DNA of 44,138 bases from an uncultured Flavobacteriales bacterium (GTDB lineage: Bacteria > Bacteroidota > Bacteroidia > Flavobacteriales_G > Salibacteraceae): assembly GCA_937899835.1 (NCBI GenBank), contig CALCCE010000208.1:1-44138 (forward strand), written 5' to 3'. Both the position numbers and the translations under genes were made by a program. Of the stretch, positions 1,484-12,477 are shown one piece after another (positions within the stretch are counted from its first letter, which is position 1; the number at the start of each line of letters is the position of its first letter). The notes beneath the pieces were generated by a model, which made no database searches, was not told where the DNA came from, and was given only the letters and a program-made list of their open reading frames with translations.

Positions 1484-1864
1484 ATGAATCCGAAAACCAA
1501 AAACATCATCGCCTGGATCGTTACCGTGCTAATCATTCCGCTGTTGGCCTCGGGAGTGGCCAAAATGGTCGACTTTGAAAACCCAGAAACCAGCCTTACC
1601 ATGTCTGCTCAATTTGCGGCCTACGGCTACCCGATTTGGTTCATGTATTTTATTGGTGTAGCCGAAATTGCAGGAGTAATTGGACTTTTCATACCAAAGT
1701 TGAGGATACTGGCTGCCTCAGGTCTACTGGTCATCATGGTAGGTGCCTTCGTCACCCATTTGATTGCCGGTGATGGCGACATTGGCGGAAGCCTAACGTT
1801 TACCGTCTTGTTGGTGGCCTTCATCTTGCTTCGAAAAGGCAGTCGGCTAGCTACTTCTTCTTAA
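1484..1864 (+). CDS. DoxX-like integral membrane protein
   Basis: 126 residues with four predicted membrane segments (about 10-27, 45-68, 74-95, 100-118). The segment YFIGVAEIAGVIGLFIPKLRILAA is typical of the DoxX/DoxX-like superfamily, whose members are small quinone- or thiol-redox-associated membrane proteins of mostly unknown biochemistry. ATG 1484 is chosen over upstream in-frame options because it removes overlap with marR and puts the start just before the first helix. It is probably co-transcribed with the MarR gene. Its stop codon TAA (1862-1864) overlaps the stop of the convergent CHAT gene within the sequence TTAA. Confidence 0.82.
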   Translation: MNPKTKNIIAWIVTVLIIPLLASGVAKMVDFENPETSLTMSAQFAAYGYPIWFMYFIGVAEIAGVIGLFIPKLRILAASGLLVIMVGAFVTHLIAGDGDIGGSLTFTVLLVAFILLRKGSRLATSS

Positions 1865-4578
1865 TGACGGGCGAACCTGCCCCGCATTAGAAAAAACAAC
1901 AAGACCAATCCAAAAAGCGCCACTATCCATCCAGCAGAAAATGGATTTGCGACAGCAGCTGATGGTAAATCGTGCAGGGCTTCTCCCCCGCCTAGTACCA
2001 CCAACCCTGCCCAGAAACTGGGATGGGCCGACCACGAATCGGTAGTGGGAGCGTTGAGGTAGGCACGCTTGGCCTCGCTGAGGCTCTGATTGATTCGTTT
2101 ACCACTTTGTAGATGTCGGTAGAACTCCAACAATATTTGGTCGGTGCTCTGCGGATTGATTTTCCAAGGACTGGCTACCGTGTTGCGACATCCAGAAAAG
2201 GCAAAGCTTTGCGAGAGGCTACGGGTTCCTACACCTTTAAAGTATACGCCTTTGGCGGTTTCGCACGCACCCAACACCAACAATTCTGCTTTTAAGCGCA
2301 AGGAGAACAACTGGGCCAGGTAAAGTTTTCGCAAGTCACACGTACTGCTATCGGCTTGTAAAGCCAACCAACTGCGGTTGGGGTTCTCTAAGGCAGCCAA
2401 TGCATGGGTTTGCAGGTGCAATACCCTGCTGGTGGGGGCTTCTTCAAGAAAAGTGGCCCAGCTGGCCTGTGGCCCCTGCTTCCAGGAGCCTTCGAATTCT
2501 TGGGCCAAGGCAGCCCAATCTTCGGTGAGGGTAGGCAAGGTGGCTAGATCGGGCGCACACGAAAAATCGGGCGCCCATCCGCTAAAGGTTTTCGGAGCAA
2601 TGGTTTCAGACTTACGAAGCAACTGCTTGATGGAAGGCGCATAGGCAACACTCCAACGTCTGGCAAGAAAGGGCCATTCCCGATAATCCGAAGCGGTGGT
2701 TGATGCCGTTAAAAGGGTTTCGAATTGAGTTCGCGACAAAAGCCGATCGGTTACCGCTAAAAATTGATCACATTGTGATATTTCGGCGTTGAATGGCTCC
2801 AGTATACGTTGATAAATTCGATGGGCACGATCTGCAGCTGCGCGATCGGGTGCTGCTGGTGCCTGCAACCAGTTGGCATGTGCTTCAAGGTCCGATTTTA
2901 AAGATGCAGTAATGGCAACTTCCTCTAACTTAAGTGCATCTGCACTTAGCCAAAAAAGATACAGTCGGCCTTCAGTCTCCAAGCTGGTAAACACAGGGCA
3001 TTTTTCATGCTCGATCCATTTTTGAAGCTGAGGTAGGTTCACCGCCACCTCCTCTGATATGGATTGAGGCAAGCCCGAATAATAGCGGGTAAGTTGGTCG
3101 CGCAAGTGGGCCCGTTCTTGCTCCAATTGCACCCAGGCTGAATCTTTAGGGCTTTGCCCATCCCATAAAATAAGATGCTGAGCGCGTTGTTCCTCCACTG
3201 ACTTTAATGCCTGAAGCGTTGTATTGCCCGAATCTTCGGCCATGCTCCGCCACACCGTTTGAAGCTTTTCGGTGAGCAACAATCCTTTGGTTCGTTCGGC
3301 ATACTGAAAAGCGGTTGCCAGCCACTGCTGATCGCCACTACTTTTCCAAAGCTGTAGTGCAGCCGCAACTGCCCGTTCCCCATCCTCATGCAACTCTTCT
3401 AAATGCTGAAACTTGGCTTGCTCAGACAACAAGAGTGAACGTACTTCCAATTCTTGTTGAAAACGAAAATTAGTGTGGGCCAAATAAGCTTTTAAGTACT
3501 GATCTTGAGCAGGATTTCGCTCGTGTAGCGCCATTAAACTGGCCATTTTACCTTGAATCACATCAATAATGAAGGGTTCTACCAAACCGCTGGCCGTTGC
3601 CGGAACTTCCAATAAAGACTGACTTTCAAAACCCGGAAAGGACATGTTCAATGCCTGATGAAAAAATTGAAGGGCTTTTTCCGGATAACCCGATTTGAGC
3701 CACACCGTACCGGTGACGGTTCTGGATTTTACTCTTTTCCGGTGGTATTGGTCGCCGTAAGCTTCCTGCTCCATGAGTTGCAGTTGTTGCCACTGTTGTT
3801 CAATCTGGTTCGAATCCAACAAATCGGAACCGGTATGCATCATCATTTGCAGCGCACCGAGAATATAAGCTTCCCTTCCCGGAAATGGATCATCGGATTT
3901 TAGAATGGCTACAGCATTTTGAGCGATTTCGAAAGCCACCTGAGGGTCGGATAGAGCGTTGATGTCCGCCATGTTGGAGAGCAAGATGCCCTGCGTTTTG
4001 GCCGAAAGGTTGGGCACTTGCAAGCCTGCCTCAAACTGCTGGGCAGCCTCTTCCATCATGTTCCGATTGGAATAAGCTAAGCCCAAGTCGTTGTAGCCTT
4101 CGGCCAGGGCCATGTTTTGTTCAGCGGCCCGACAATGCTCCACCATGCGGGTCAACAGATCAATCGCCGTAAGATTTTCTCCAAAACGAGTGTAGATATT
4201 GGCCAGTGGCTCCAATACGAATCGGGCAGTCCAAAAATTATCGTTGCCGGCCTTGGTGTGCCACTTTAAAGAGAGTTGGTAGGCTTCGCGCGCCTCTAAA
4301 AAGCGTCCTTGCATATCCCCTAAGAGATACCCCTGGTTGGCGTAGAGCCATGCCAGTTGGGTCATTTCCGATGTAGTTTGGGGAGCGGAAGGCAGGAAGC
4401 GCAGCGCGCTATCGATCACCACTTCGGCTCGGTCTAACTCACCCGAATCTCGAAGTAAGCCTGCTCGAGTTTTGTGGCTTTTTATCCATTGCTCCAATAT
4501 CGAAGGTGATTCTTCAACACGCTGAGCAAACAGTTGACTACATCCCAACAGCAGACAACAAATAAAAAATTGGCGCAT
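1861..4578 (-). CDS. Exported TPR-CHAT (caspase-like) protein with C-terminal membrane anchor
   Basis: 905 residues from ATG 4578. Order: signal peptide (1-19, ending LFA-Q; the internal LLLGC could alternatively be a lipobox), about 400 residues of TPR-like helical repeats (for example AEGYNDLGLAYSNRNMMEEAAQQFEAGL), a helical linker, then a CHAT domain at about 510-865. The caspase-type dyad is intact: His725 in HLQTHA and Cys772 in LGACETA. The conserved tail SAHPSFWAGLVVLGG is also present. A final hydrophobic helix (about 881-898) with RGRFARH is a likely membrane anchor, placing TPR and protease domains in the periplasm. The gene follows the PKD/DUF7619-like gene and lies opposite a sigma/anti-sigma pair. 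The substrate is unknown. The longer frame start upstream would lie across the terminator hairpin and is rejected. Confidence 0.88.
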   Translation of the reverse strand: MRQFFICCLLLGCSQLFAQRVEESPSILEQWIKSHKTRAGLLRDSGELDRAEVVIDSALRFLPSAPQTTSEMTQLAWLYANQGYLLGDMQGRFLEAREAYQLSLKWHTKAGNDNFWTARFVLEPLANIYTRFGENLTAIDLLTRMVEHCRAAEQNMALAEGYNDLGLAYSNRNMMEEAAQQFEAGLQVPNLSAKTQGILLSNMADINALSDPQVAFEIAQNAVAILKSDDPFPGREAYILGALQMMMHTGSDLLDSNQIEQQWQQLQLMEQEAYGDQYHRKRVKSRTVTGTVWLKSGYPEKALQFFHQALNMSFPGFESQSLLEVPATASGLVEPFIIDVIQGKMASLMALHERNPAQDQYLKAYLAHTNFRFQQELEVRSLLLSEQAKFQHLEELHEDGERAVAAALQLWKSSGDQQWLATAFQYAERTKGLLLTEKLQTVWRSMAEDSGNTTLQALKSVEEQRAQHLILWDGQSPKDSAWVQLEQERAHLRDQLTRYYSGLPQSISEEVAVNLPQLQKWIEHEKCPVFTSLETEGRLYLFWLSADALKLEEVAITASLKSDLEAHANWLQAPAAPDRAAADRAHRIYQRILEPFNAEISQCDQFLAVTDRLLSRTQFETLLTASTTASDYREWPFLARRWSVAYAPSIKQLLRKSETIAPKTFSGWAPDFSCAPDLATLPTLTEDWAALAQEFEGSWKQGPQASWATFLEEAPTSRVLHLQTHALAALENPNRSWLALQADSSTCDLRKLYLAQLFSLRLKAELLVLGACETAKGVYFKGVGTRSLSQSFAFSGCRNTVASPWKINPQSTDQILLEFYRHLQSGKRINQSLSEAKRAYLNAPTTDSWSAHPSFWAGLVVLGGGEALHDLPSAAVANPFSAGWIVALFGLVLLFFLMRGRFARH

Positions 4579-4609
4579 CCTGTCCAAAAATAAGACAGGA
4601 TGCGCCAAT
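4569..4609 (-). terminator. Terminator hairpin containing the next gene's start codon
   Basis: A perfect 16-bp inverted repeat pairs 4569-4584 with 4594-4609 around a 9-nt loop. On the minus strand the stem is followed by T6-A-TT (4568 downward), so it reads as an intrinsic terminator 12 bp after the stop of the PKD/DUF7619-like gene. The ATG (4578-4576) of the CHAT gene is inside the 3' arm, and the T-tract is read as Phe-Phe-Ile codons of its signal peptide. Confidence 0.75.
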
Positions 4610-4614
4610 AACAA
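4585..4614 (-). promoter_or_regulatory. Candidate promoter of the CHAT gene, inside the terminator loop
   Basis: On the minus strand, TTG (4614-4612), a 19-bp spacer and TATTTTTG (4592-4585) match the Bacteroidota -33/-7 consensus exactly. The -7 box occupies the hairpin loop. The predicted start of transcription (about 4579-4582) would be 0-5 nt before the ATG, giving a leaderless or nearly leaderless mRNA. Chance occurrence cannot be excluded. Confidence 0.45.
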
Positions 4615-4620
4615 CAGTTT

Positions 4621-6081
4621 TTACTTTGACTTCGAAAGGCGTTTGCGCTTGCCACGCTCCATGAGCCAAAGCAACAGGAGAAGCAAGGACAGGAGTCCAA
4701 ATACAATCGCCCAAAAACAGCAATTGAGCCAGATGGGAACCCCGTTTGAAGGTTTAACCGTTCCTCCTCCTCCGTTTGATTGATCGCAGGTGGTGACCGC
4801 TTCGTTGGTGGACACCGGAGCATTGATATCAAAGAAAATGTCGGTTTTACAAACAATGTCGTTGCTCATCGAATATCCTCCGTTCACCGTTACATCAAAC
4901 TCAACCCATCCCCGGGTTTGCTCAATGTCTTTGGTAAGGGGCGACCCAAGGGGCAGCAGGTGTAAATTTTGAAACTCAATGTAGAGTTTACGATTAGCTG
5001 CGTCCAGGTAATTGCACCATCCCGTCTGCATGCCCAAATTGGGGAGGTTAGTCCCTAAGGTATTGGTGTTGATATCATAAATCAGGTTGGGGTAGGTCAA
5101 ATTGACCGGGGTATGAAAATCAAAATTTCGGATGGAGTTCAAATCCAGGTTGGGATCAAGGAGTACCTCCAGGCGTACATAATTGGTTTGCATCGAACCG
5201 GTATTTTGAAAACGCACCTTGTAGCGGATGGTTTTGCCGCCCATGTCACAGTCGTTGGCTGCGCCAATAGAGGGTGTCATATCATTGGGATCACGCGAGG
5301 CCCGAACGGCTACATTTAAATGATCAACTGAGTTGGAATTGATGCTCCGGCGTTTGAACGTTACGTTCACTGGTAATTCCATATCAACGTAATCGGCGGC
5401 AGCATCCATCACCCGAAAAGCGGCTAAAAAACTTCGTTCGTCATTCAACCGCATGGTGGGGTAGGTCCAAACCATTTCTGAGGGTATGGTTTGAGGTTTT
5501 TCTGTCTCACCAAAAGGCAAGGTGGCAATATTGTTCCAACTGGCATCGGGTATGTACTCTAAGGTGCTGGCAATGTCTGGATCTCCGAACTCCAGCAAGA
5601 TATCATCAGCATCCATCCGGTCTGCATCATAGTTGGCATAGGTGATGATGAAATAGACCGTATCGCGTGGAACAATGTTGTTGAAATGTTGAATACGGAT
5701 TCTTTGCGATCCCCCCGAAAGGGTATTGGGCATGGAGGCATCAGTTGGCGTTTTACCACGAAAAGCCATGGGAGGAGGTCCTCCTGAGCCGTAGTTTCCG
5801 GTGACAAAACTCGCGCCTTCTGCCACTGTGGAGGATGCACTGTTGAGAATGTAATATTCGTGGATCGGAGCATCCACGAAACTGTAATTCCCTTCACCAA
5901 ACCACCATAAATAGGTATAGAAATGAGGAGCACCGTAAGTAGGCAGGTTGATGACCTCATGGGTAAATGGCGGTGTTTGTCCACCTGGAGAAATTTGTAC
6001 AGTAGGAGGGGAAACGGCTGTCTGTGCCAGGGTAAATGTGCCAATCAGCAAAAGGCTGAGCGAAAAAAATAATTGTTTCAT
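4621..6081 (-). CDS. Exported PKD/DUF7619-like protein with C-terminal transmembrane anchor
   Basis: 486 residues. Signal peptide 1-19 (LLLIGTFTLAQ). Near residues 55-75 a PKD-like signature appears (YLWWFGEGNYS...PIHEY). The C-terminal half carries the pattern IRYKVRFQNTGSMQTNYVRL...DIFFDINAPVSTNEAVT, which resembles the DUF7619/conserved-repeat module usually found just before type IX secretion tails. Here no T9SS tail follows: there is a Gly-rich linker, a hydrophobic helix (about 452-474) and a basic end (RGKRKRLSKSK), predicting a periplasmic protein anchored in the inner membrane with a short cytoplasmic tail. It is divergent from the ECF sigma gene and upstream of the CHAT gene, so a role as ligand-binding or scaffold partner of that cluster is inferred. 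Confidence 0.75.
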   Translation of the reverse strand: MKQLFFSLSLLLIGTFTLAQTAVSPPTVQISPGGQTPPFTHEVINLPTYGAPHFYTYLWWFGEGNYSFVDAPIHEYYILNSASSTVAEGASFVTGNYGSGGPPPMAFRGKTPTDASMPNTLSGGSQRIRIQHFNNIVPRDTVYFIITYANYDADRMDADDILLEFGDPDIASTLEYIPDASWNNIATLPFGETEKPQTIPSEMVWTYPTMRLNDERSFLAAFRVMDAAADYVDMELPVNVTFKRRSINSNSVDHLNVAVRASRDPNDMTPSIGAANDCDMGGKTIRYKVRFQNTGSMQTNYVRLEVLLDPNLDLNSIRNFDFHTPVNLTYPNLIYDINTNTLGTNLPNLGMQTGWCNYLDAANRKLYIEFQNLHLLPLGSPLTKDIEQTRGWVEFDVTVNGGYSMSNDIVCKTDIFFDINAPVSTNEAVTTCDQSNGGGGTVKPSNGVPIWLNCCFWAIVFGLLSLLLLLLWLMERGKRKRLSKSK

Positions 6082-6187
6082 TGTGCTTTGGTTTTATGAC
6101 AGAAGCTGGGGCACCTGTCTGTTTCTTCCCGTTGGTGTCCCTACCGCGGAAAAATATAACCACCGGATGAAAAAAACTTGGATTGGG

Positions 6188-6200
6188 AAGGAATTTCCTT
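6188..6200. promoter_or_regulatory. Palindrome upstream of the ECF sigma gene
   Basis: AAGGAA and TTCCTT flank a single central T (6188-6200), within the 152-bp divergent region between the exported PKD protein and the sigma gene. It lies 17 bp upstream of an imperfect -7-like TTTCTTTG (6218-6225). It could be an operator or an alternative-sigma promoter element, but a single copy is weak evidence. Confidence 0.25.
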
Positions 6201-6233
6201 AAAACGGTTAGGTTTTCTTTCTTTGTGGTACTT

Positions 6234-6836
6234 ATGATCAAAAGGCTTTTTGCCAGCGAATCGGCTTTGATTAAAGGGCTACGCCAAGGAGGTGTAGCCG
6301 AAGACCAGGCCATTAAAAAATTGCTGTCCAAACACCGGGATATGATATTTCGGTTGGTGACTCAAAAACAAGGGTCGGAAGAAGATGCTGCCGACGTGTT
6401 GTATGAAAGCCTTACCACTTTGGTGCTGCATGTGCGCGAAGGAAAGTTTAGAGAAGAAAGCAGCTTGAGCACTTATTGGTATGCCATTGCCAAAGGAGTG
6501 TGGTACAAGCGATTGCGCAAGCGCATCCGGGAGGAAAACCTGGAGGACCAATTGGCTTTTGAAGAGGACGAGGTGATCGACCCGGAGAAAGCACTGGAAG
6601 ACCAGGAAGCACGCTTCAAGGTTCAGGCACTTTTAGGTCGCCTACGCCCCAAATGCCGGGAAGTGTTGCTGCTTTGGGGGCAGCATTATTCCATGGACGA
6701 GATTGCTCAAAAAGTGGGATTTAAAACTGCTCAAAATGCGATGAACAAAAAAAGCAAATGCCTCTCTGAATTGAAGGGGCTTTTGAAACAAGAACCCGAA
6801 CTACGTGGGCAATTGCGCCTGCTGTTTCAAGCATGA
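6234..6836 (+). CDS. ECF-type RNA polymerase sigma factor
   Basis: 200 residues from ATG 6234. The sigma-70 region 2 fold is visible at about 20-90 (AIKKLLSKHRDMIFRLVTQKQGSEEDAADVLYE...FREESSLSTYWYAIAKGVWYKRLRK), and region 4 at about 130-185 (LLGRLRPKCREVLLLWGQHYSMDEIAQKVGFKTAQNAMNKKSKCLSELK). An upstream GTG/TTG extension (from 6183) would add non-conserved residues, so ATG 6234 is used. The stop overlaps the start of the anti-sigma-like gene by 4 bp (ATGA), indicating translational coupling. The likely role is switching on a regulon, perhaps including the divergent PKD and CHAT genes, on release by its membrane partner. Confidence 0.88.
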   Translation: MIKRLFASESALIKGLRQGGVAEDQAIKKLLSKHRDMIFRLVTQKQGSEEDAADVLYESLTTLVLHVREGKFREESSLSTYWYAIAKGVWYKRLRKRIREENLEDQLAFEEDEVIDPEKALEDQEARFKVQALLGRLRPKCREVLLLWGQHYSMDEIAQKVGFKTAQNAMNKKSKCLSELKGLLKQEPELRGQLRLLFQA

Positions 6837-7540
6837 ACGAAGCTGAAGATCAGATTTCTGCCTATGTCGAAGGACGAATGGATGCTGCCGAGCAGGCTTC
6901 CTTCGAAACACGAATGGCCAACGACCCAAACCTCGCCGATGCGGTGGCGCTTCATCAAGAGGCCACAGCTGCCGTACAGGCAGTAGCGCGCGAGGCACTT
7001 AAAAATCGCATTCAATCCCTGGATGAAAAGGCGCCTTCCTCCAACGCTAGGCTCTGGATAGGAATAGCCGCCTCGGTGGCTCTTTTGGTAGTAGCTACCT
7101 GGTGGTGGAGTTCCAATAGCAGCGCGCCCCCCAGTGAACTCTACGCCACCTATTACGAAAACTACCCCGACCGGCTCAGCACACTCTCGTCTTCGGATGC
7201 TTTGCTCAAAAAAGCCATGGCGTTTTACCAAAATCAGCAATTTGATAGTTCGATTGTTTACTTGCTACAACTAAAGCCAACTTTTCAGCCCCCCGAAGCC
7301 ATTGATTTGTATTTGGGTTTAAGTGAATTAGGCGCCAAGCGTCCTGAAAAAGCCCTTCTCTATTTTCATTCCGTTAAGGACCAACAGGCAGCTTTCGCCG
7401 AAGTAGCACATTGGTATGAGGTGCTGGCCTTGCTGGCCAACCAAAAAAACGATGCGGCTCTGGCCTCGCTACAAGCCTATCGGAAACAATGGACCTATCA
7501 AGCGGAGAAAGCCGCAGCACTCGAAAAAGACTTGCAGTGA
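6833..7540 (+). CDS. Anti-sigma-like single-pass membrane protein with periplasmic TPR-like domain
   Basis: 235 residues. The N-terminal 50 residues (ISAYVEGRMDAAEQASFETRMANDPNLADAVALHQE) match the helical 'E-x-Y-x-x-G-x-L' type N-terminus of Bacteroidota anti-sigma factors. The zinc ligands (HxxxCxxC) of ZAS proteins are absent. One transmembrane helix spans about 71-90 (LWIGIAASVALLVVATWWW). The periplasmic part (about 100-235) has TPR-like helical pairs (KKAMAFYQNQQFDSSIVYLLQL; LYLGLSELGAKRPEKALLYF). The 4-bp overlap with the sigma gene supports a cognate pair. TPRs on the periplasmic side suggest protein-protein sensing, possibly with the TPR-rich CHAT protein. Confidence 0.78.
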   Translation: MNEAEDQISAYVEGRMDAAEQASFETRMANDPNLADAVALHQEATAAVQAVAREALKNRIQSLDEKAPSSNARLWIGIAASVALLVVATWWWSSNSSAPPSELYATYYENYPDRLSTLSSSDALLKKAMAFYQNQQFDSSIVYLLQLKPTFQPPEAIDLYLGLSELGAKRPEKALLYFHSVKDQQAAFAEVAHWYEVLALLANQKNDAALASLQAYRKQWTYQAEKAAALEKDLQ

Positions 7541-7759: not shown

Positions 7760-8353
7760 ATGCGAAACCACATGTTGGGAGACGACAACGAAAAAGACGA
7801 CAAAAAGAAAGAAAAATCCTCTGGAAAAATCGGGGAGAAATTTCTGAAGGAGCGCAAAGTGTTTCTTTGGGGTCCCGTACACGATAAATCTGCCGAAAAG
7901 ATCATCAATCAACTGATGTATCTCGAACTGGAAGAACCAGGAAAAGAGATCACCTTTTTCATCAACAGTCCGGGTGGAATGGTGACTTCAGGGATGGCCA
8001 TCATGGATACTATGAACCTTATTTCCTCACCGGTAACTACCGTTTGTATGGGCTTGGCCGCCTCTATGGGCTCCATTTTGCTCTCAGCAGGCGAAAAAGG
8101 GAAACGTCTGATTTTTCCTCACGGTCGGGTAATGATTCACCAACCGTCTATCGGAGGTTTTCAAGGCACGGCTTCTGATCTTGAGATCACCGTTACGGAG
8201 ATCAACAAAACCAAGCAGTTGAGCGCTGAAATTTTAGCCGTTAACTGTGGCCAAAGTGTAGAAAAAGTGCTGGCTGATTTCAACCGCGACTATTGGATGA
8301 GTGCCGACGAATCCGTGGAATACGGCATTGTTGACGGCCATTACAAGAGCTAA
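7760..8353 (+). CDS. clpP: ClpP-family serine protease (stand-alone paralogue)
   Basis: 197 residues. The ClpP catalytic triad is present: Ser102 in GLAASMGS, His127 in VMIHQPS, Asp177 in NRDYWMSADE. FINSPGGMVTSG forms the oxyanion and strand region. Compared with housekeeping ClpP, it starts with a highly charged extension (DDNEKDDKKKEKSSGK) instead of a short propeptide. The gene has no clpX, clpA or tig neighbour. Many Bacteroidota carry such a second ClpP. Translation may begin at Met5 (7772), since homologues I know start just before the acidic stretch. The preceding 219 bp (7541-7759) hold no gene. Its ATPase partner and substrates cannot be inferred from context. Confidence 0.88.
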   Translation: MRNHMLGDDNEKDDKKKEKSSGKIGEKFLKERKVFLWGPVHDKSAEKIINQLMYLELEEPGKEITFFINSPGGMVTSGMAIMDTMNLISSPVTTVCMGLAASMGSILLSAGEKGKRLIFPHGRVMIHQPSIGGFQGTASDLEITVTEINKTKQLSAEILAVNCGQSVEKVLADFNRDYWMSADESVEYGIVDGHYKS

Positions 8354-8360
8354 ATACCTT

Positions 8361-8387
8361 CCGGTGGGGGAGCTATTCCCTCACCGG
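8361..8387. terminator. Shared hairpin between convergent clpP and sensor-kinase genes
   Basis: Arms 8361-8371 and 8377-8387 pair over 11 bp with one G-T wobble, around a 5-nt loop (8372-8376). The loop carries the TAG stop (8373-8375) of the minus-strand kinase, and the stop of clpP is 8 bp to the left. No clear T-tract follows on either strand, so it could act as a weak bidirectional terminator or as a 3' end stabiliser. Confidence 0.5.
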
Positions 8388-9977
8388 CTCCACATTCGAT
8401 TGTGTCACTTCTTGCTGCTTAGGAACCGGCAAGCGGATGGTAAAAACGGAACCGACTCCCAGTTCGCTTTCTACAATCACTTCCCCCTGTAGCCTTCTTA
8501 CGCCCTTTCTCACAAGGTACAATCCCAAACCACTACCATCCGACTCGCGGGTACCCCGGTAGAACATCTCAAAAACTTTTTCTTTCACCTCTTGCGACAA
8601 GCCAATTCCATTGTCTTTGGCTTCAATCATTAGGTTAGCGCCTTTGGTGTATACTTTGAGGTCTAAATAGGGATGCTCCTCCTTGGGTTTTTGATACTTC
8701 ACCGCATTGAGGATAAGGTTTTGTAGAATGGTGAGCAGGATACTACGGTCGCTCCGAAACGCATTTTCTAACTGCACCGAGTAGTGAATGTCGATCGCTC
8801 CAAAGTTGGGCACATGTTCGATACTCGTGAGAATCTCCTTGATGATGGCATCAAAATTCACCTCTGACATTTCCAAGCGTCCCTGACGGATACGGGACAC
8901 ATTGGTGAGCTTGCCCAGAATAATATCTAAGTGCAGCAAGCGCTCTTCGATCAGGTCACAGTATTTGATAATGGAATTTTCGTCGTGAGTATCGATGCGC
9001 GCCAGGTTCACTAACCCCAGCACAGAGGTGAGCGGTCCACGGATGTCGTGGGAGATTTTATAGATAAAAGTGCTCAGCTCATCATTGATCTGCTTGAGCT
9101 CTTCTTCGGTGAGAATACGGTCTTCAATTTCTTTGCGCAGTTCCAGGTTGATATTGGCCAATTCCTGGGTGCGTTGCTCTACTTTCTGCTCTAGACGCTC
9201 GTTGTAGGCTTTTAGGTTCTCTTCGGCTTCTACCTGTGCAGTTACATCGTGAAAAATTGATCGCGTGGTGCGGACACCATCTTCCTCAATCACCACGGCA
9301 TTGCCACGTACATGGAGAATGCGCTGATCTTTGGTCACAAACTTTACCTCCATGTTTTGTGTACCACCGTCGTGCATCAGTTTCTCTAAAATTCCTTCAC
9401 AATGCGCTCTATAATCTTCGTGAATAATGTCGAACAAATGCAACTTCGGAATCTCTAACTCTGAGTATCCTAAAGCATTTCGCCATGCACGGTTGACGTG
9501 CATCAACTGCCCATTTTCGTTTACACTCTGAATGAGATCGGTAGTGCCTTCAAACAAATCGCGGTATCGGGTTTCCGATCTGCGCAGGTTAATTTTCGAT
9601 TCGTGCAGGTTGAGGGCGTTGGCTACCGTGATGGGAAGTAACCGTAGGTAATTATGCTCGGAGTCTTTGATCAAATAATCGTGGGCTCCTGCTTTCATCA
9701 CATTTACCGCCAGCTCTTCATCTCCACCACCGGTCACAAAAATGATAGGGATTTCTAACCCATCGGCAATCAAATCAAAAGCAGTACCGTCTCCTAAATG
9801 ATAATCGGTGATCACCAGGTGAAAGGTTCCGGTGTCCAACAATTCCTGGGCTTCTCTTACAGAACCTGCAATCTCAAAATCGAATTGAAAGTGTCCGGCC
9901 TTGGCAGCTCGTTTAAACGCCATCTGGTCAATCAAGTCGTCTTCAACCAGCAGCACTCTATATCTTCTTTTCGTCAT
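8373..9977 (-). CDS. Receiver-PAS-histidine kinase hybrid (cytoplasmic)
   Basis: 534 residues, no membrane segment. An N-terminal receiver domain (1-120) has the acidic pocket (VEDD at 11-14), phospho-acceptor Asp58 in VITDYHLGDG and Lys104 in YLIKD. A PAS domain (about 137-255) follows, then a coiled coil (255-300), then HisKA with His310 in KISHDIRGP. The HATPase_c domain has N box (LQNLILNAVKYQ), G1 (DNGIGL) and G2 (GSGLGLYLV). In this arrangement the kinase activity is likely gated by phosphorylation of its own receiver. It is the last gene of a minus-strand run (17822 to 8373), 61 bp after a single-domain receiver. No output domain is present. Confidence 0.88.
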   Translation of the reverse strand: MTKRRYRVLLVEDDLIDQMAFKRAAKAGHFQFDFEIAGSVREAQELLDTGTFHLVITDYHLGDGTAFDLIADGLEIPIIFVTGGGDEELAVNVMKAGAHDYLIKDSEHNYLRLLPITVANALNLHESKINLRRSETRYRDLFEGTTDLIQSVNENGQLMHVNRAWRNALGYSELEIPKLHLFDIIHEDYRAHCEGILEKLMHDGGTQNMEVKFVTKDQRILHVRGNAVVIEEDGVRTTRSIFHDVTAQVEAEENLKAYNERLEQKVEQRTQELANINLELRKEIEDRILTEEELKQINDELSTFIYKISHDIRGPLTSVLGLVNLARIDTHDENSIIKYCDLIEERLLHLDIILGKLTNVSRIRQGRLEMSEVNFDAIIKEILTSIEHVPNFGAIDIHYSVQLENAFRSDRSILLTILQNLILNAVKYQKPKEEHPYLDLKVYTKGANLMIEAKDNGIGLSQEVKEKVFEMFYRGTRESDGSGLGLYLVRKGVRRLQGEVIVESELGVGSVFTIRLPVPKQQEVTQSNVEPVRE

Positions 9978-10038
9978 GGATGGTTCGGCGAAATTTGTTT
10001 GGGGTTTTTCGTAAAAGGATCAGGAGACATCACGGCCT

Positions 10039-10458
10039 CTACTGGGGTTCAGCATACTCACTTTTAGACCAGTAGGTTGTGAGTGTTCGCATGAGGTCTA
10101 CAAATTCTTTAAAGTCAATGGGTTTCACCATGTATCCGGCAATGCCAAGCTTATAACTTTCAAGCTTATCGTAGTTGTCCTTCGAGGTGGTAAGTACAAT
10201 GGTGGGCACCAGCCTCAGCCGCTCGTGTTTAAGCCGCTCTCGAAGAAACTCGATCCCGTTCATTTTAGGCATATTAAGGTCGAGCAACGTGATGCAAGGG
10301 GTCTCGTTGTTTTCTTCGAGCAAGTGATGGAGTGCTTCTTCTCCGTTTTTCACGTGAACTACGTCGTTTTCGACTTGGATTTCTCGCAGGGCCCGGTTCA
10401 CCGTCATGGCGTCAACCAGATCATCTTCTACAAGAAGGATAGGATTTTTATGAGACAT
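10039..10458 (-). CDS. Single-domain response regulator (CheY/Rcp1-like receiver)
   Basis: 139 residues, one receiver domain only. Acidic pocket LVEDDLVD at 9-16, phospho-acceptor Asp60 in LLDLNMPKMNG, Thr in VLTTS and Lys in MVKPIDF are all present. The ATG at 10458 begins MSHKNPILLVEDD. An upstream TTG start would add unlikely residues directly after the kinase stop. It lies 27 bp after the upstream PAS kinase and is preceded by that kinase in the same operon, so it is probably that kinase's phospho-acceptor and passes the signal by protein contact, perhaps to the hybrid kinase downstream. Confidence 0.88.
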   Translation of the reverse strand: MSHKNPILLVEDDLVDAMTVNRALREIQVENDVVHVKNGEEALHHLLEENNETPCITLLDLNMPKMNGIEFLRERLKHERLRLVPTIVLTTSKDNYDKLESYKLGIAGYMVKPIDFKEFVDLMRTLTTYWSKSEYAEPQ

Positions 10459-10485
10459 AAGTGTGACCATTGCTTTTGTAAACAA

Positions 10486-12477
10486 TTAGTTCGCAACCGT
10501 TTTAAACGGCTGATTTTCAGTAATTTGAGAAGAGCCTGCCTTTTTAGGAAGTGTAAATATAAAATCTGTGCCCAAACCAGGGCGCGATTCTAAATAAATC
10601 TTTCCTCCATAAAGCTCAATAATCTTTTTAACCACAGCAAGTCCAATACCTGAACTCTCACGATTGCTACGCACCTCGAGGGTTTGAAACATACCAAAAA
10701 CCTTTTCATGGTATTTCTTGTCGATTCCAGGACCATTATCGGAAATGGTAAATCTCCAAAAGTCATCAGCACTTTCCAGTTCGAGCTCCACGCGCGGCAC
10801 TTCTTTGTCGTTGTATTTGATGGCGTTCCCAATTAAGTTTTGAAAAACTTGCTGGAGTCGAACCTCTCCAATGGGCAGAGAGGGTAGATCATTAGGTATT
10901 ACCAAGGTAACCGAAGGGTCTGGTGCGAGCAAGTCGACTACGACTTCCAACAGCTTGTTGAGGTCGCAGCTTTCTACCAACGCTTTTTCACGGCCAATTT
11001 TCGAGTATTCCAGAATGCCATCAATGAACGAATACATGCGCTCCACCCTCCGATTGAGCTGTTCTAAGTTGGCTTTTCCCTGATCGTCGAACACATCAGC
11101 GTAATCTACCGTTATCCACTGAGCTAAGGCACCAATGCCTCGCAAAGGTGCTTTTAGGTCGTGGGATACGATGTGTGCATATTGCCTCAGGTCGATGTTG
11201 GCCGCCTTCAAATCCGACATTAGTTCTAACTGCCGCTTCTCTTGCTCTTTTCGATATGTAATGTCGCGCAGCGCTGCTGTAAAAAATTTTGTGCCACCAA
11301 TCAGGGTTTCAGAAATCACAATTTCCAGTGGAAACTCTTCGCCATTTTTTCGCATGCCGAAGAGTTCCATGCGCTTGCCCAACACCCTGGCTTCGCCAGT
11401 TAGCAAGTAACGTTGCATCCCATTTCGGTGGAAGTTATGAAAACGATCGTGCATCAAAATGGTCACCTCTTTGAACATCAGCTCCTCAGCGGTATAGCCC
11501 CAGATTTGATTGACGGATTGGTTGACCATTTGAATTATGCCCTCTTCATTGATCACCACAATGGCTTCCCCTACCGTTTGGAGTACCGACTCTAACTGTA
11601 GTGCGGTTTGCGCGGTTTCTTGCCGCGCTTTTTCCAGTTCCGCCCTCGCTTCTTCTAAGTCGCGGTTTTTTCGGTTCAACTTGGCATTGATAGACTGTAA
11701 GGAATCTACTTTGCCAAAAAGCACTTGCCGCAGCTGACCATGGCTGAGGATTTGTAATTTTTCTTCATCAATCAATTTGTCCGGCAACATGCCCACCACT
11801 ACCGGAAAGTTGAGTAAGCTGCGATAAGCTGCACTCATCGATTGGTAGTTCTGCTCAAATATTCTTCCTGGCATCGATGTGCCCATGTTGTCTTCAAACT
11901 TTCGATACAGCAAACTACTCACCTCACGTAGCGTTTGCCCCCACTCCAATTCTGATTTTGGCACGGAAGCATCTCGCATTTCTTCGAATGGCGGAGGATG
12001 AGGAGTATCAGGCACTTCTTTTAACCACTCATCAAGGTTTTTCCAGGTGCTTTGTCCTGCGGCTCCCATTAGGTTAATGCTTTGCTGTACAATCCCCGTT
12101 AAAAGCATTTGACAAAGCATTCTTTGTTGCCGATCTTCGGTTTCGAAAATCACACCAAAGCGGGGATTATTTAGGAGTGAACCAAACTGAAGGCGCACTT
12201 CTCGCCGAAGCTGGTCACGTTCTATCCGATGCTTCCCTACTTCTGCCAGCAACTGTTCGATAAAAAGGTAAATGGAGGGAAGATGCTCCTCCTGCTTTTG
12301 TTGTTTTTGATTCTTAAATTGGCTTATATCGGCTTTGGCTTTCTGGGTCAGTTGATCTTCAGACAATTTTGCCTGCAAGTAGTCAACCAACTCACCAGGG
12401 GTGGAGCTTCGAGAAGATGAGCTACCACTTTGAGGTAGCTCATCACCCAGAATTTTTTGTTTCCAACGCCGTAGCAC
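10486..12477 (-). CDS. Soluble PAS histidine kinase with an unassigned N-terminal helical domain
   Basis: 663 residues starting at GTG 12477, since no ATG occurs in the first 100 codons. Residues 25-250 form an all-helical region I cannot assign (LRREVRLQFGSLLNN, FEDNMGTSMPG, LLNFPVVVGMLPDKL). A coiled coil (about 255-298) leads into a PAS domain (about 298-408, ending TAALRDITYRKEQE). HisKA carries His439 in HIVSHDLKAPLRG. HATPase_c has N box (QVFQNLIGNAIKYN), G1 (SDNGPGI) and G2 (SSGIGLAVV). No membrane segment is present, although the gene directly follows a four-helix membrane protein with an 8-bp gap. The small membrane protein may therefore provide the input. Confidence 0.85.
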   Translation of the reverse strand: MLRRWKQKILGDELPQSGSSSSRSSTPGELVDYLQAKLSEDQLTQKAKADISQFKNQKQQKQEEHLPSIYLFIEQLLAEVGKHRIERDQLRREVRLQFGSLLNNPRFGVIFETEDRQQRMLCQMLLTGIVQQSINLMGAAGQSTWKNLDEWLKEVPDTPHPPPFEEMRDASVPKSELEWGQTLREVSSLLYRKFEDNMGTSMPGRIFEQNYQSMSAAYRSLLNFPVVVGMLPDKLIDEEKLQILSHGQLRQVLFGKVDSLQSINAKLNRKNRDLEEARAELEKARQETAQTALQLESVLQTVGEAIVVINEEGIIQMVNQSVNQIWGYTAEELMFKEVTILMHDRFHNFHRNGMQRYLLTGEARVLGKRMELFGMRKNGEEFPLEIVISETLIGGTKFFTAALRDITYRKEQEKRQLELMSDLKAANIDLRQYAHIVSHDLKAPLRGIGALAQWITVDYADVFDDQGKANLEQLNRRVERMYSFIDGILEYSKIGREKALVESCDLNKLLEVVVDLLAPDPSVTLVIPNDLPSLPIGEVRLQQVFQNLIGNAIKYNDKEVPRVELELESADDFWRFTISDNGPGIDKKYHEKVFGMFQTLEVRSNRESSGIGLAVVKKIIELYGGKIYLESRPGLGTDFIFTLPKKAGSSQITENQPFKTVAN

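Follow-up and report, generated by a model that had tools for sequence, protein, structure and literature searches.

We analysed a 44,138-nucleotide stretch from an uncultured Flavobacteriales bacterium (hereafter the window), in which positions 1861–7540 carry an ECF sigma and anti-sigma gene pair divergent from genes for a DUF7619 protein and a TPR-CHAT protein (Table 1). An earlier note on this DNA had described the same four genes, and that observation is confirmed with corrections to a PKD assignment and to the sigma start. The sigma factor matches TIGR02937 (E 1e-15; 57.7 bits against a cut-off of 42.9) and Sigma70_r2 (PF04542; E 1.5e-6, above cut-off), while a sigma4 Pfam match lies below cut-off (18.5 against 25.7). 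The ECF assignment therefore stands, but the frame had been taken from TTG 6183, and it is the ATG at 6234 where the alignment with a relative from genome G003 (42% identity) begins. The 4-bp overlap reported between the sigma and anti-sigma genes is present, as ATGA.

Table 1. Features of the sigma/anti-sigma/CHAT locus (positions are those of the window)
Feature	Position	Strand	Basis or remark
ECF sigma factor, 200 aa	6234..6836	+	ATG start, TTG 6183 alternative; TIGR02937, PF04542
Putative anti-sigma factor, single-pass, 235 aa	6833..7540	+	Overlaps sigma by 4 bp; AlphaFold2 mean pLDDT 92.5
Predicted anti-sigma cytosolic domain, residues 3–65, three helices	6839..7027	+	Model
Anti-sigma transmembrane helix, residues 72–95, predicted N-in/C-out	7046..7117	+	TM prediction, charge bias, model
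Predicted extracytoplasmic juxtamembrane linker of anti-sigma, residues 96–122; candidate cleavage segment	7118..7198	+	R[GS] in relatives
R114 codon in anti-sigma linker	7172–7174	+	
Predicted extracytoplasmic TPR domain of anti-sigma, residues 123–234, three repeats	7199..7534	+	Model, fold matches
Intergenic region separating two divergent transcription units	6082..6233	.	ORF map
DUF7619 protein, putatively exported, 486 aa	4621..6081	-	PF24595 (E 3.8e-20); TM
TPR-CHAT protein (905 aa) ending in a TM and a basic tail; signal peptide called by eye	1861..4578	-	AlphaFold2 mean pLDDT 82.2, pTM 0.76
CHAT domain, residues 584–863	1990..2829	-	PF12770
H725 codon	2404–2406	-	Invariant in aligned proteins
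C772 codon	2263–2265	-	Invariant in aligned proteins

The protein encoded after the sigma factor fits the plan of a membrane anti-sigma factor on the ORF map, charge bias and model: it adjoins the sigma gene and comprises an N-terminal helical cytosolic domain, one transmembrane helix and an outer domain. It matches the NCBIfam 'antisigma' model at E 3e-6, with 27.3 bits far below the cut-off of 100, and its N-terminal profile gave weak matches only among PDB sequences (including 3hug, E 0.91). The TPRs fall below Pfam cut-offs and are clear in the AlphaFold2 model, where the domain's best folds include the YbgF TPR domain (2xev; Z 16.0, r.m.s.d. 1.5, 113 aligned) and BamD (2yhc; Z 15.2, r.m.s.d. 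1.9, 116 aligned). Matches listed by the A6 search were TPR chains, again so at a stricter E-value, and a PHROGs search with the anti-sigma and the DUF7619 partner found no matches. Charge bias places the N-terminus inside in 58 of 64 anti-sigmas (reversed in 3), and the structural model shows the TPR domain on the predicted extracytoplasmic side.

The linker between the membrane and this TPR domain is a candidate cleavage segment. An Arg-Gly/Ser motif (R[GS]) occurs within 40 residues beyond the transmembrane helix in 46 of 64 anti-sigma relatives (shuffles: mean 15, maximum 25) and in 34 of 51 after clustering at 40%, sitting 18–31 residues beyond the helix in 41 of the 46. Control slices beginning 40, 80 and 110 further on hold the motif in 9, 12 and 10 of the 64. 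It is absent from the linkers of 18 relatives, and the window's own linker reads PDR-L, with R114 followed by Leu and no exact R[GS]. We also assembled an extra set of 20 stretches, among which L255, L256 and L258 adjoin a CHAT gene and L248, L249 and L250 are partial matches, and checked the linker in 14 anti-sigmas without a CHAT within 5.5 kb in the fetched DNA. By the script's rule six of these 14 carry R[GS], one of them (L257) directly at the membrane, as do three of four others; the motif is therefore not exclusive to CHAT neighbours.

The CHAT domain is well above the cut-off for PF12770 (E 1e-36; 127.2 bits, cut-off 24). His725 and Cys772 are invariant in 17/17 and 30/30 aligned proteins, which bears out the intact His-Cys dyad proposed earlier, including its identification of Cys772, and both residues are kept in 170 of 172 CHATs, duplicates counted. 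Both minus-strand proteins end in a hydrophobic helix and a basic tail. Export signals were called by eye; a hydropathy rule picks up an N-terminal segment in the DUF7619 partner (hydrophobic, residues 4–23; this protein also has a C-terminal TM at 447–477 and a basic tail) but none in the window CHAT. For the C-terminal transmembrane helix of the CHATs, charge bias indicates a cytosolic C-terminus in 53 of 65 (reversed in 7). By charge bias, then, CHAT and the anti-sigma TPRs are both predicted to lie outside the membrane, and the earlier placement of the two in one compartment holds on this measure.

The exported partner had been called PKD/DUF7619-like. DUF7619 was the sole match in a Pfam search, with no PKD family at E ≤ 0.1, so by Pfam the PKD part of the call is unsupported. 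A DUF7619 partner with a C-terminal transmembrane helix is found in four divergent cassettes, including L033, L069 and L071; other cassettes have a T9SS-tail protein, an FGE-sulfatase-like protein, a DUF4412 protein or no partner. Because the partner type varies in this way, the sensing role previously given to this protein is a guess.

The earlier reading had been made to depend on the four genes being neighbours in related genomes also, and on checking, linkage recurs. We found 76 sigma-CHAT pairs in Bacteroidota with variable gene order: the two genes converge in 34 and diverge in 26, and 14 and 2 pairs are same-strand. In 66 of the 76 the sigma gene is immediately followed by a candidate anti-sigma gene. 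One cassette (L195) is from the cultured strain Draconibacterium orientale FH5T. What recurs is the sigma/anti-sigma/CHAT linkage, and not a fixed four-gene unit, as partner and orientation vary. In the window's own genome, a sigma gene lies near 8 of 11 CHATs. Among non-redundant C-anchored CHATs, 70 of 124 have a sigma gene within 5.5 kb against about 12% expected from the ECF density of six genomes, each with 18 to 77 ECF matches. No sigma was found near the other 54: 25 of them come from three genomes with multiple copies, and for 29 the DNA on one side falls short of 5.5 kb. Of 43 CHATs scored as having no C-terminal transmembrane helix, 11 lie near a sigma gene, at least two of these (L033 and L069) being anchored at the end by eye despite the score. 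Where 5.5 kb is available on both sides, the figures are 30 of 55 anchored against 3 of 11 other CHATs, a difference that is not significant (p 0.09). Unanchored CHATs are under-sampled here because stretches were fetched round only part of the CHAT matches, leaving out several CHATs of about 1,400 residues and the weak G032 matches. L052, L053 and several other stretches were picked for a sigma match, and none contains a counted CHAT.

At the level of whole genomes, 17 of 149 match the full-length anti-sigma profile at 100 bits or more, and 16 of those 17 belong to the 24 genomes with a CHAT match of at least 200 bits (Fisher p 9.6e-15); the anti-sigma is present in G100 and G084, where a CHAT match at 200 bits is absent. 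Across 66 cassettes the Mantel correlation is 0.59 for CHAT/anti-sigma, 0.55 for sigma/anti-sigma and 0.39 for CHAT/sigma. Within genomes, co-divergence is marginal for CHAT/anti-sigma (r 0.28, p 0.048) and not significant for CHAT/sigma (p 0.13) or TPR/anti-sigma (p 0.13).

CHAT proteases had been described earlier as known mainly from cytoplasmic systems, a premise that is incomplete since sigma-tied CHATs are already known (Csx29/Csx30, DdvA and ECF54). In PMC10028731, Craspase is described as a system in which Csx29 cleaves Csx30, an inhibitor of an ECF-like sigma, and the likeness lies in a TPR-CHAT protease acting on such an inhibitor. Craspase is also the top fold for the window CHAT model, tied among its entries (8eex_B; Z 27.6, r.m.s.d. 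9.1, 520 aligned). A phmmer search of PDB with the full-length window CHAT gave no match at E 0.01, and the CHAT domain alone reached Craspase at E 0.47–0.52. Craspase is cytosolic and RNA-guided, whereas the window CHAT is anchored and, by eye, exported. The protease region of separase, a eukaryotic cohesin protease and a fold relative only, matches the model as well (5fc2_B; Z 26.4, r.m.s.d. 3.0, 300 aligned).

The DdvA structures (PDB IDs: 8rot and 8rw5) were reached through fold comparison. DdvA of Myxococcus xanthus is a transmembrane anti-sigma with a CHAT within its own chain, and DdvS controls CBASS and CRISPR genes (PMC12288465). Both systems pair an ECF sigma with a transmembrane anti-sigma and involve a CHAT. 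Alignments of the window CHAT model to DdvA span TPR and CHAT (8rw5: Z 20.4, r.m.s.d. 13.4, 532 aligned; 8rot: Z 20.0, r.m.s.d. 14.1, 574 aligned), and the CHAT-domain profile finds its best PDB sequence match in DdvA (E 0.0019), with the His and Cys aligned. DdvA is one chain, whereas in the window the anti-sigma and CHAT are separate genes and CHAT has its own signal peptide (by eye) and C-terminal anchor; moreover, His721 is invariant in window-type CHATs and the aligned position in DdvA is Asp. The window cassette shares with DdvA a putative outer CHAT linked to an ECF sigma, but as a separate protein, and screening the fetched CHAT ORFs for TM segments turned up no DdvA-like fusions. The natural fusion in DdvA supports contact between CHAT and anti-sigma.

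ECF54 sigmas have conserved CHAT genes nearby, with proteolytic control proposed, and are described in PMC8999054 as working without an anti-sigma, beside CHAT, subtilase or carboxypeptidase genes; compared by description, the window cassette differs in having a candidate anti-sigma. Operons of metacaspase (C14) and sigma-70 genes in Myxococcus and others (PMC3501461, section 13) likewise tie a caspase-like gene to a sigma, but the protease is a metacaspase rather than a CHAT, and that section takes up neither an anti-sigma nor topology. A search of the open-access literature surfaced Craspase, ECF54, DdvA/DdvS and the metacaspase operons, but no account of cassettes in which an exported TPR-CHAT and an anti-sigma are separate proteins. 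Related arrangements are already known. None of the four window proteins had a PADLOC match; over seven proteins, the single match was a TPR one in L034.

We propose that this is a cassette, recurrent in Bacteroidota, whose TPR-CHAT is periplasmic, tethered to the membrane and controls an ECF sigma by cutting a single-pass anti-sigma, a reading we put at roughly 55%. It is supported, at the level of sequence, by linkage, charge-based topology, the intact dyad, the modelled outer TPR domain of the anti-sigma and the outer-linker Arg-Gly/Ser of most relatives. In its favour too, the one CHAT that has lost both dyad residues (L031) adjoins a degenerate sigma/anti-sigma frame whose linker is without R[GS]. 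At rest, the sigma would be held at the inner membrane by the anti-sigma; a signal, possibly received through the exported partner or the CHAT protein's TPR domain, would activate CHAT, which would cut the anti-sigma within its juxtamembrane linker (site 1), and an M50 protease would then cut inside the membrane (site 2) and free the sigma. The site-1 protease DegS is a PDZ serine protease, whereas the site-1 protease proposed for the window would be a caspase-like cysteine type. The order of outer-side cut, intramembrane cut and sigma release resembles that of RseA/DegS/RseP (mechanism as given in PMC10028731). An M50 protease is encoded in the genome, which says little because all 14 controls have one. 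On this proposal, the cassette would be a two-protein version of the single-chain DdvA and a periplasmic counterpart of Csx29/Csx30/CASP-sigma.

The same linkage might arise if CHAT were an output, with the sigma driving a periplasmic caspase-like protease and its partner for envelope remodelling or cell killing and the anti-sigma TPRs sensing something else. ECF sigma targets often include neighbouring and divergent genes, and both the range of partners (DUF7619, T9SS tail, FGE-sulfatase, DUF4412) and the 54 of 124 C-anchored CHATs with no sigma found nearby would suit such a role. We nevertheless consider it unlikely: the anti-sigma diverges with CHAT (0.59) more closely than CHAT does with sigma (0.39), the DdvA chain fuses CHAT with the anti-sigma itself, and the conserved linker Arg would need another reason. 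Alternatively, CHAT could act on the anti-sigma as a structural scaffold, through TPR-to-TPR binding without cutting, given that charge bias and the models place TPR domains of both proteins in one compartment and that the two can share a chain, as in DdvA. The His and Cys that 170 of 172 CHATs keep would not be needed if binding were all that was selected for, and this together with the linker Arg motif makes a purely binding role quite improbable. Chance adjacency was already disfavoured and is extremely unlikely: six genomes have 18 to 77 ECF matches each, and 11 of 43 CHATs scored without an anchor likewise lie near a sigma (at least L033 and L069 being anchored by eye), but 70 of 124 far exceeds the expected 12% or so, genome co-occurrence is strong (p 1e-14), and an anti-sigma with TM and TPRs stands beside the sigma in most pairs.

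If proteolytic control of the anti-sigma is correct, caspase-like proteolysis would be a widespread envelope-to-transcription route in these Gram-negative bacteria, with several paralogues in some genomes, and a common theme of TPR-CHAT acting on an anti-sigma would link Craspase, which is RNA-guided, with DdvA, a regulator of phage defence. The analysis also names a short candidate cleavage segment on the predicted outer side of the membrane, where little attention has been paid to CHAT proteases in the open literature searched. More tentatively, and in our view rather doubtfully, the cassettes may form an expanded Bacteroidota class, in which diverse exported modules feed paralogous periplasmic CHATs, every one matched to a TPR anti-sigma and an ECF sigma of its own and cleaving at a common Arg-Gly/Ser linker; in that case DdvA would be the fused and Craspase the cytosolic offshoot of one TPR-CHAT/anti-sigma partnership.

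Window positions 1861-7540 hold two divergent transcription units (see table), with the sigma factor and anti-sigma facing an exported DUF7619 protein (the partner) and a TPR-CHAT caspase-like protein. The signal peptides of the CHAT protein and the partner are putative, having been assigned by eye; a plain hydropathy rule flagged the N-terminus of the partner and left that of the CHAT protein unflagged, and across the family it flagged an N-terminal segment in 71 of the 119 C-terminally anchored CHAT proteins with an intact 5' end. The earlier note correctly named Cys772 as the catalytic residue of the window CHAT, while the PKD domain it placed in the partner found no support in Pfam. Beyond the cassette, positions 7760-12477 carry a ClpP gene and then three minus-strand genes that by eye resemble receiver and histidine-kinase proteins.

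Genes of the sigma/anti-sigma/CHAT cassette in the window
Feature	Position	Strand	Evidence
ECF sigma factor	6234-6836	+	TIGR02937, E 1e-15
Anti-sigma, 235 aa	6833-7540	+	4-bp overlap with the ECF sigma factor
DUF7619 protein (partner)	4621-6081	-	C-terminal hydrophobic helix and basic tail
TPR-CHAT	1861-4578	-	PF12770, E 1e-36; C-terminal hydrophobic helix and basic tail

The linkage of sigma factor, anti-sigma and CHAT is well supported. CHAT proteins were gathered through a profile search of 149 same-class genomes, from stretches around some of its matches and some of those of another search, from stretches of the window's own genome and from 80 named loci found via the CHAT alone, yielding 172 of at least 450 aa, or 167 once repeats were removed (retrieved stretches L129, L145, L169, L179 and L182). 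Under a rough rule for a C-terminal transmembrane (TM) helix, which missed the anchors of L033 and L069, a sigma factor lay within 5.5 kb of 70 of 124 CHATs with the helix versus 11 of the 43 that lack it (one-sided Fisher p 3.9e-4); restricted to CHATs flanked on each side by 5.5 kb of DNA or more, the counts were 30/55 versus 3/11 (p 0.09). From the ECF density in six of the surveyed genomes (8.5 per Mb), a sigma factor would be expected near ∼12% of CHATs. Carriers with a sigma factor nearby include Agaribacillus aureus, Draconibacterium orientale, Maribellus sediminis and several Saprospiraceae and Cyclobacteriaceae MAGs. Among the 54 anchored CHATs scored without one, 25 come from three genomes (G032, 10; MAG JAUIFR01, 10; G110, 5), for 29 the DNA on one side is shorter than 5.5 kb, and that in L039 actually has a divergent sigma factor. 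Genome G032 (L049-L053, L072-L088) has 29 PF12770 matches; an exported-looking gene precedes several of its 10 retrieved anchored TPR-CHATs that have no sigma factor within 5.5 kb.

Counting one CHAT per sigma factor and excluding the duplicates L129 and L145, we obtained 76 sigma-CHAT pairs, of which 34 were convergent and 26 divergent; the others lie on a single strand, with the sigma factor leading in 14 and the CHAT in two. The gene directly 3' of the sigma factor, taken as the anti-sigma, was present in 66 of the 76. The four-gene layout described in the earlier note recurs with a C-terminally anchored DUF7619 partner in the window, L033 (with one additional exported gene), L069 and L071, but the partner differs in other divergent cassettes, being a T9SS-tail protein in L073 and L076, an FGE-sulfatase-like protein in L075 and a DUF4412 protein in L079; L049 has none. 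The core is therefore the sigma factor, anti-sigma and CHAT, and the partner is variable.

Across the 149 genomes, a full-length anti-sigma match (starting at or before profile position 60, at least 100 bits) occurred in 17, 16 of which were among the 24 with a CHAT of at least 200 bits; the one-sided Fisher p of 9.6e-15 overstates this co-occurrence, because the cut-offs were chosen after the lists were seen, CHAT-linked anti-sigmas served to build the profile and the genomes are relatives of one another. The exception was G100; in G084 the match is weaker, at 88 bits, and neither genome has a CHAT at 200 bits. Three genomes (G075, G138 and G159) have CHATs without a nearby sigma factor and sigma/anti-sigma pairs elsewhere, an arrangement compatible with pairing between distant loci. 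In a comparison of 66 cassettes, tree distances were correlated for CHAT/anti-sigma (0.59), the TPR part of the CHAT protein/anti-sigma (0.58), sigma/anti-sigma (0.55), CHAT/sigma (0.39) and TPR part/sigma (0.36), all with p at the floor of 2000 permutations. When permuted within genomes (59 pairs of cassettes), sigma/anti-sigma stayed strong (0.62, p 4e-4) and CHAT/anti-sigma was marginal (0.28, p 0.048); significance was lost for CHAT/sigma (0.21, p 0.13) and for TPR/anti-sigma (0.31, p 0.13).

The window's own genome has PF12770 at 11 places, eight with a sigma factor nearby: the window, contigs C302, C61, C22, C206, C225 and C97, and C288:23155, whose sigma factor was overlooked by the sigma profile search (Sigma70_r4_2 at 2.9e-6). 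No sigma factor was found in the DNA retrieved around the C284 CHAT or the weak CHAT at C288:5551, and the C198 CHAT is interrupted by the contig end, its N-terminal part absent. The C22 cassette (L031:5740-8761) looks decayed, with a CHAT lacking His and Cys beside a sigma-like and anti-sigma sequence in one degenerate frame, its linker without the Arg-Gly/Ser motif R[GS]. C13 (L032:1-6777) may hold one more cassette: a sigma/anti-sigma pair there is divergent from a DUF7619 protein of 1092 aa and a TPR protein truncated where the contig ends, and the CHAT may lie on C198. The CHAT-linked anti-sigma of C302 (L029:3782-4534) has an outer part that, when aligned, does not appear to be TPR-like; it belongs to a run of sigma factor, anti-sigma and CHAT in which the CHAT has no C-terminal anchor.

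The window CHAT model (30 sequences, mean pLDDT 82.2, pTM 0.76) comprises a helical TPR region and a CHAT domain. Its best fold match was the Craspase TPR-CHAT (8eex_B; Z 27.6, rmsd 9.1, 520 aligned), with separase 5fc2_B at Z 26.4 (rmsd 3.0, 300 aligned), and lower-ranked folds comprised DdvA, a transmembrane anti-sigma (8rw5, Z 20.4, rmsd 13.4, 532 aligned; 8rot, Z 20.0, rmsd 14.1, 574 aligned), and TPR proteins. Foldseek placed 8rot fifth (E 1.2e-13), and a profile of 15 CHAT domains against PDB sequences returned DdvA first (E 0.0019, His and Cys aligned), followed by Craspase (E 0.0098). DdvA carries CHAT and anti-sigma on a single chain, whereas in the window they are two proteins; we take this natural fusion as support for a working contact between them. 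The CHAT of DdvA reportedly lies outside the membrane.

In its AlphaFold2 model (25 sequences, mean pLDDT 92.5, pTM 0.63), the window anti-sigma has inside helices at 3-12, 18-30 and 32-65, a TM helix at 72-95, a linker at 96-122 and six outer TPR helices within 123-234. The outer domain most resembles the solved TPR of YbgF (2xev; Z 16.0, rmsd 1.5, 113 aligned) and then BamD (2yhc; Z 15.2, rmsd 1.9, 116 aligned), both envelope proteins. Judged by positive charges, the N-terminus of the anti-sigma is inside in 58 of 64 (reversed in three), and so is the C-terminal tail of the CHAT in 53 of the 65 that show a clear helix (reversed in seven).

Regulated proteolysis of the anti-sigma is the best-supported mechanism for the cassette, in which we infer both that the CHAT controls the sigma factor and that it cuts the anti-sigma; its rivals make the CHAT an output of the sigma factor or a binder of the anti-sigma that does not cut it. 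As site-1 protease, the CHAT would cut the anti-sigma linker, an M50 protease would act at site 2, and the sigma factor would be set free. An M50 protease is present in the window's own genome, as in 14/14 controls. His and Cys are retained in 170 of 172 CHATs (duplicates included), the exceptions being L031 and L057:4117-7524, whose frame ends at the catalytic Cys position, either a pseudogene or a sequencing error. With two of the 66 anti-sigmas set aside for want of a clear TM helix (L123, L158), R[GS] lay within 40 residues outside the membrane in 46 of 64, at 18-31 residues in 41 of these; 1000 shuffles gave 15.0 on average and at most 25, and slices beginning 40, 80 and 110 farther along gave 9, 12 and 10 of 64. 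When the anti-sigmas were clustered at 40% identity, the motif was present in 34 of 51 (2000 shuffles: mean 11.6, maximum 22). The window linker has R114 and no R[GS]. Orthocaspases are described as cleaving after positively charged residues (PMC6426788), and a membrane-proximal linker Arg is a plausible place for a clan CD protease to cut. CHAT neighbours are not alone in having the motif: R[GS] also occurred in 6 of 14 anti-sigmas without a CHAT within 5.5 kb, in one of them immediately at the membrane, and in three of another four; L239 and L251, from genomes without a CHAT at 200 bits, had none.

Links between caspase-like proteins and sigma factors are already known. Published work describes Csx30, an inhibitor of CASP-sigma cleaved by Csx29 (PMC10028731); DdvS, which becomes active when DdvA is inactivated, the triggering signal being unknown (PMC4374960), and which controls an antiphage island (PMC12288465); CHAT genes within ECF54 neighbourhoods (PMC8999054); and metacaspase/sigma operons in Myxococcus and others (PMC3501461). 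In the open-access literature searched, we found no description of an exported TPR-CHAT that is a separate protein from its TPR anti-sigma. Draconibacterium-type anti-sigmas (L195:9065-10567, also L178, L181, L187 and L206) are ∼500 aa long and by eye seem to carry three anti-sigma-like modules in tandem ahead of the TM helix, with ERS just outside it.
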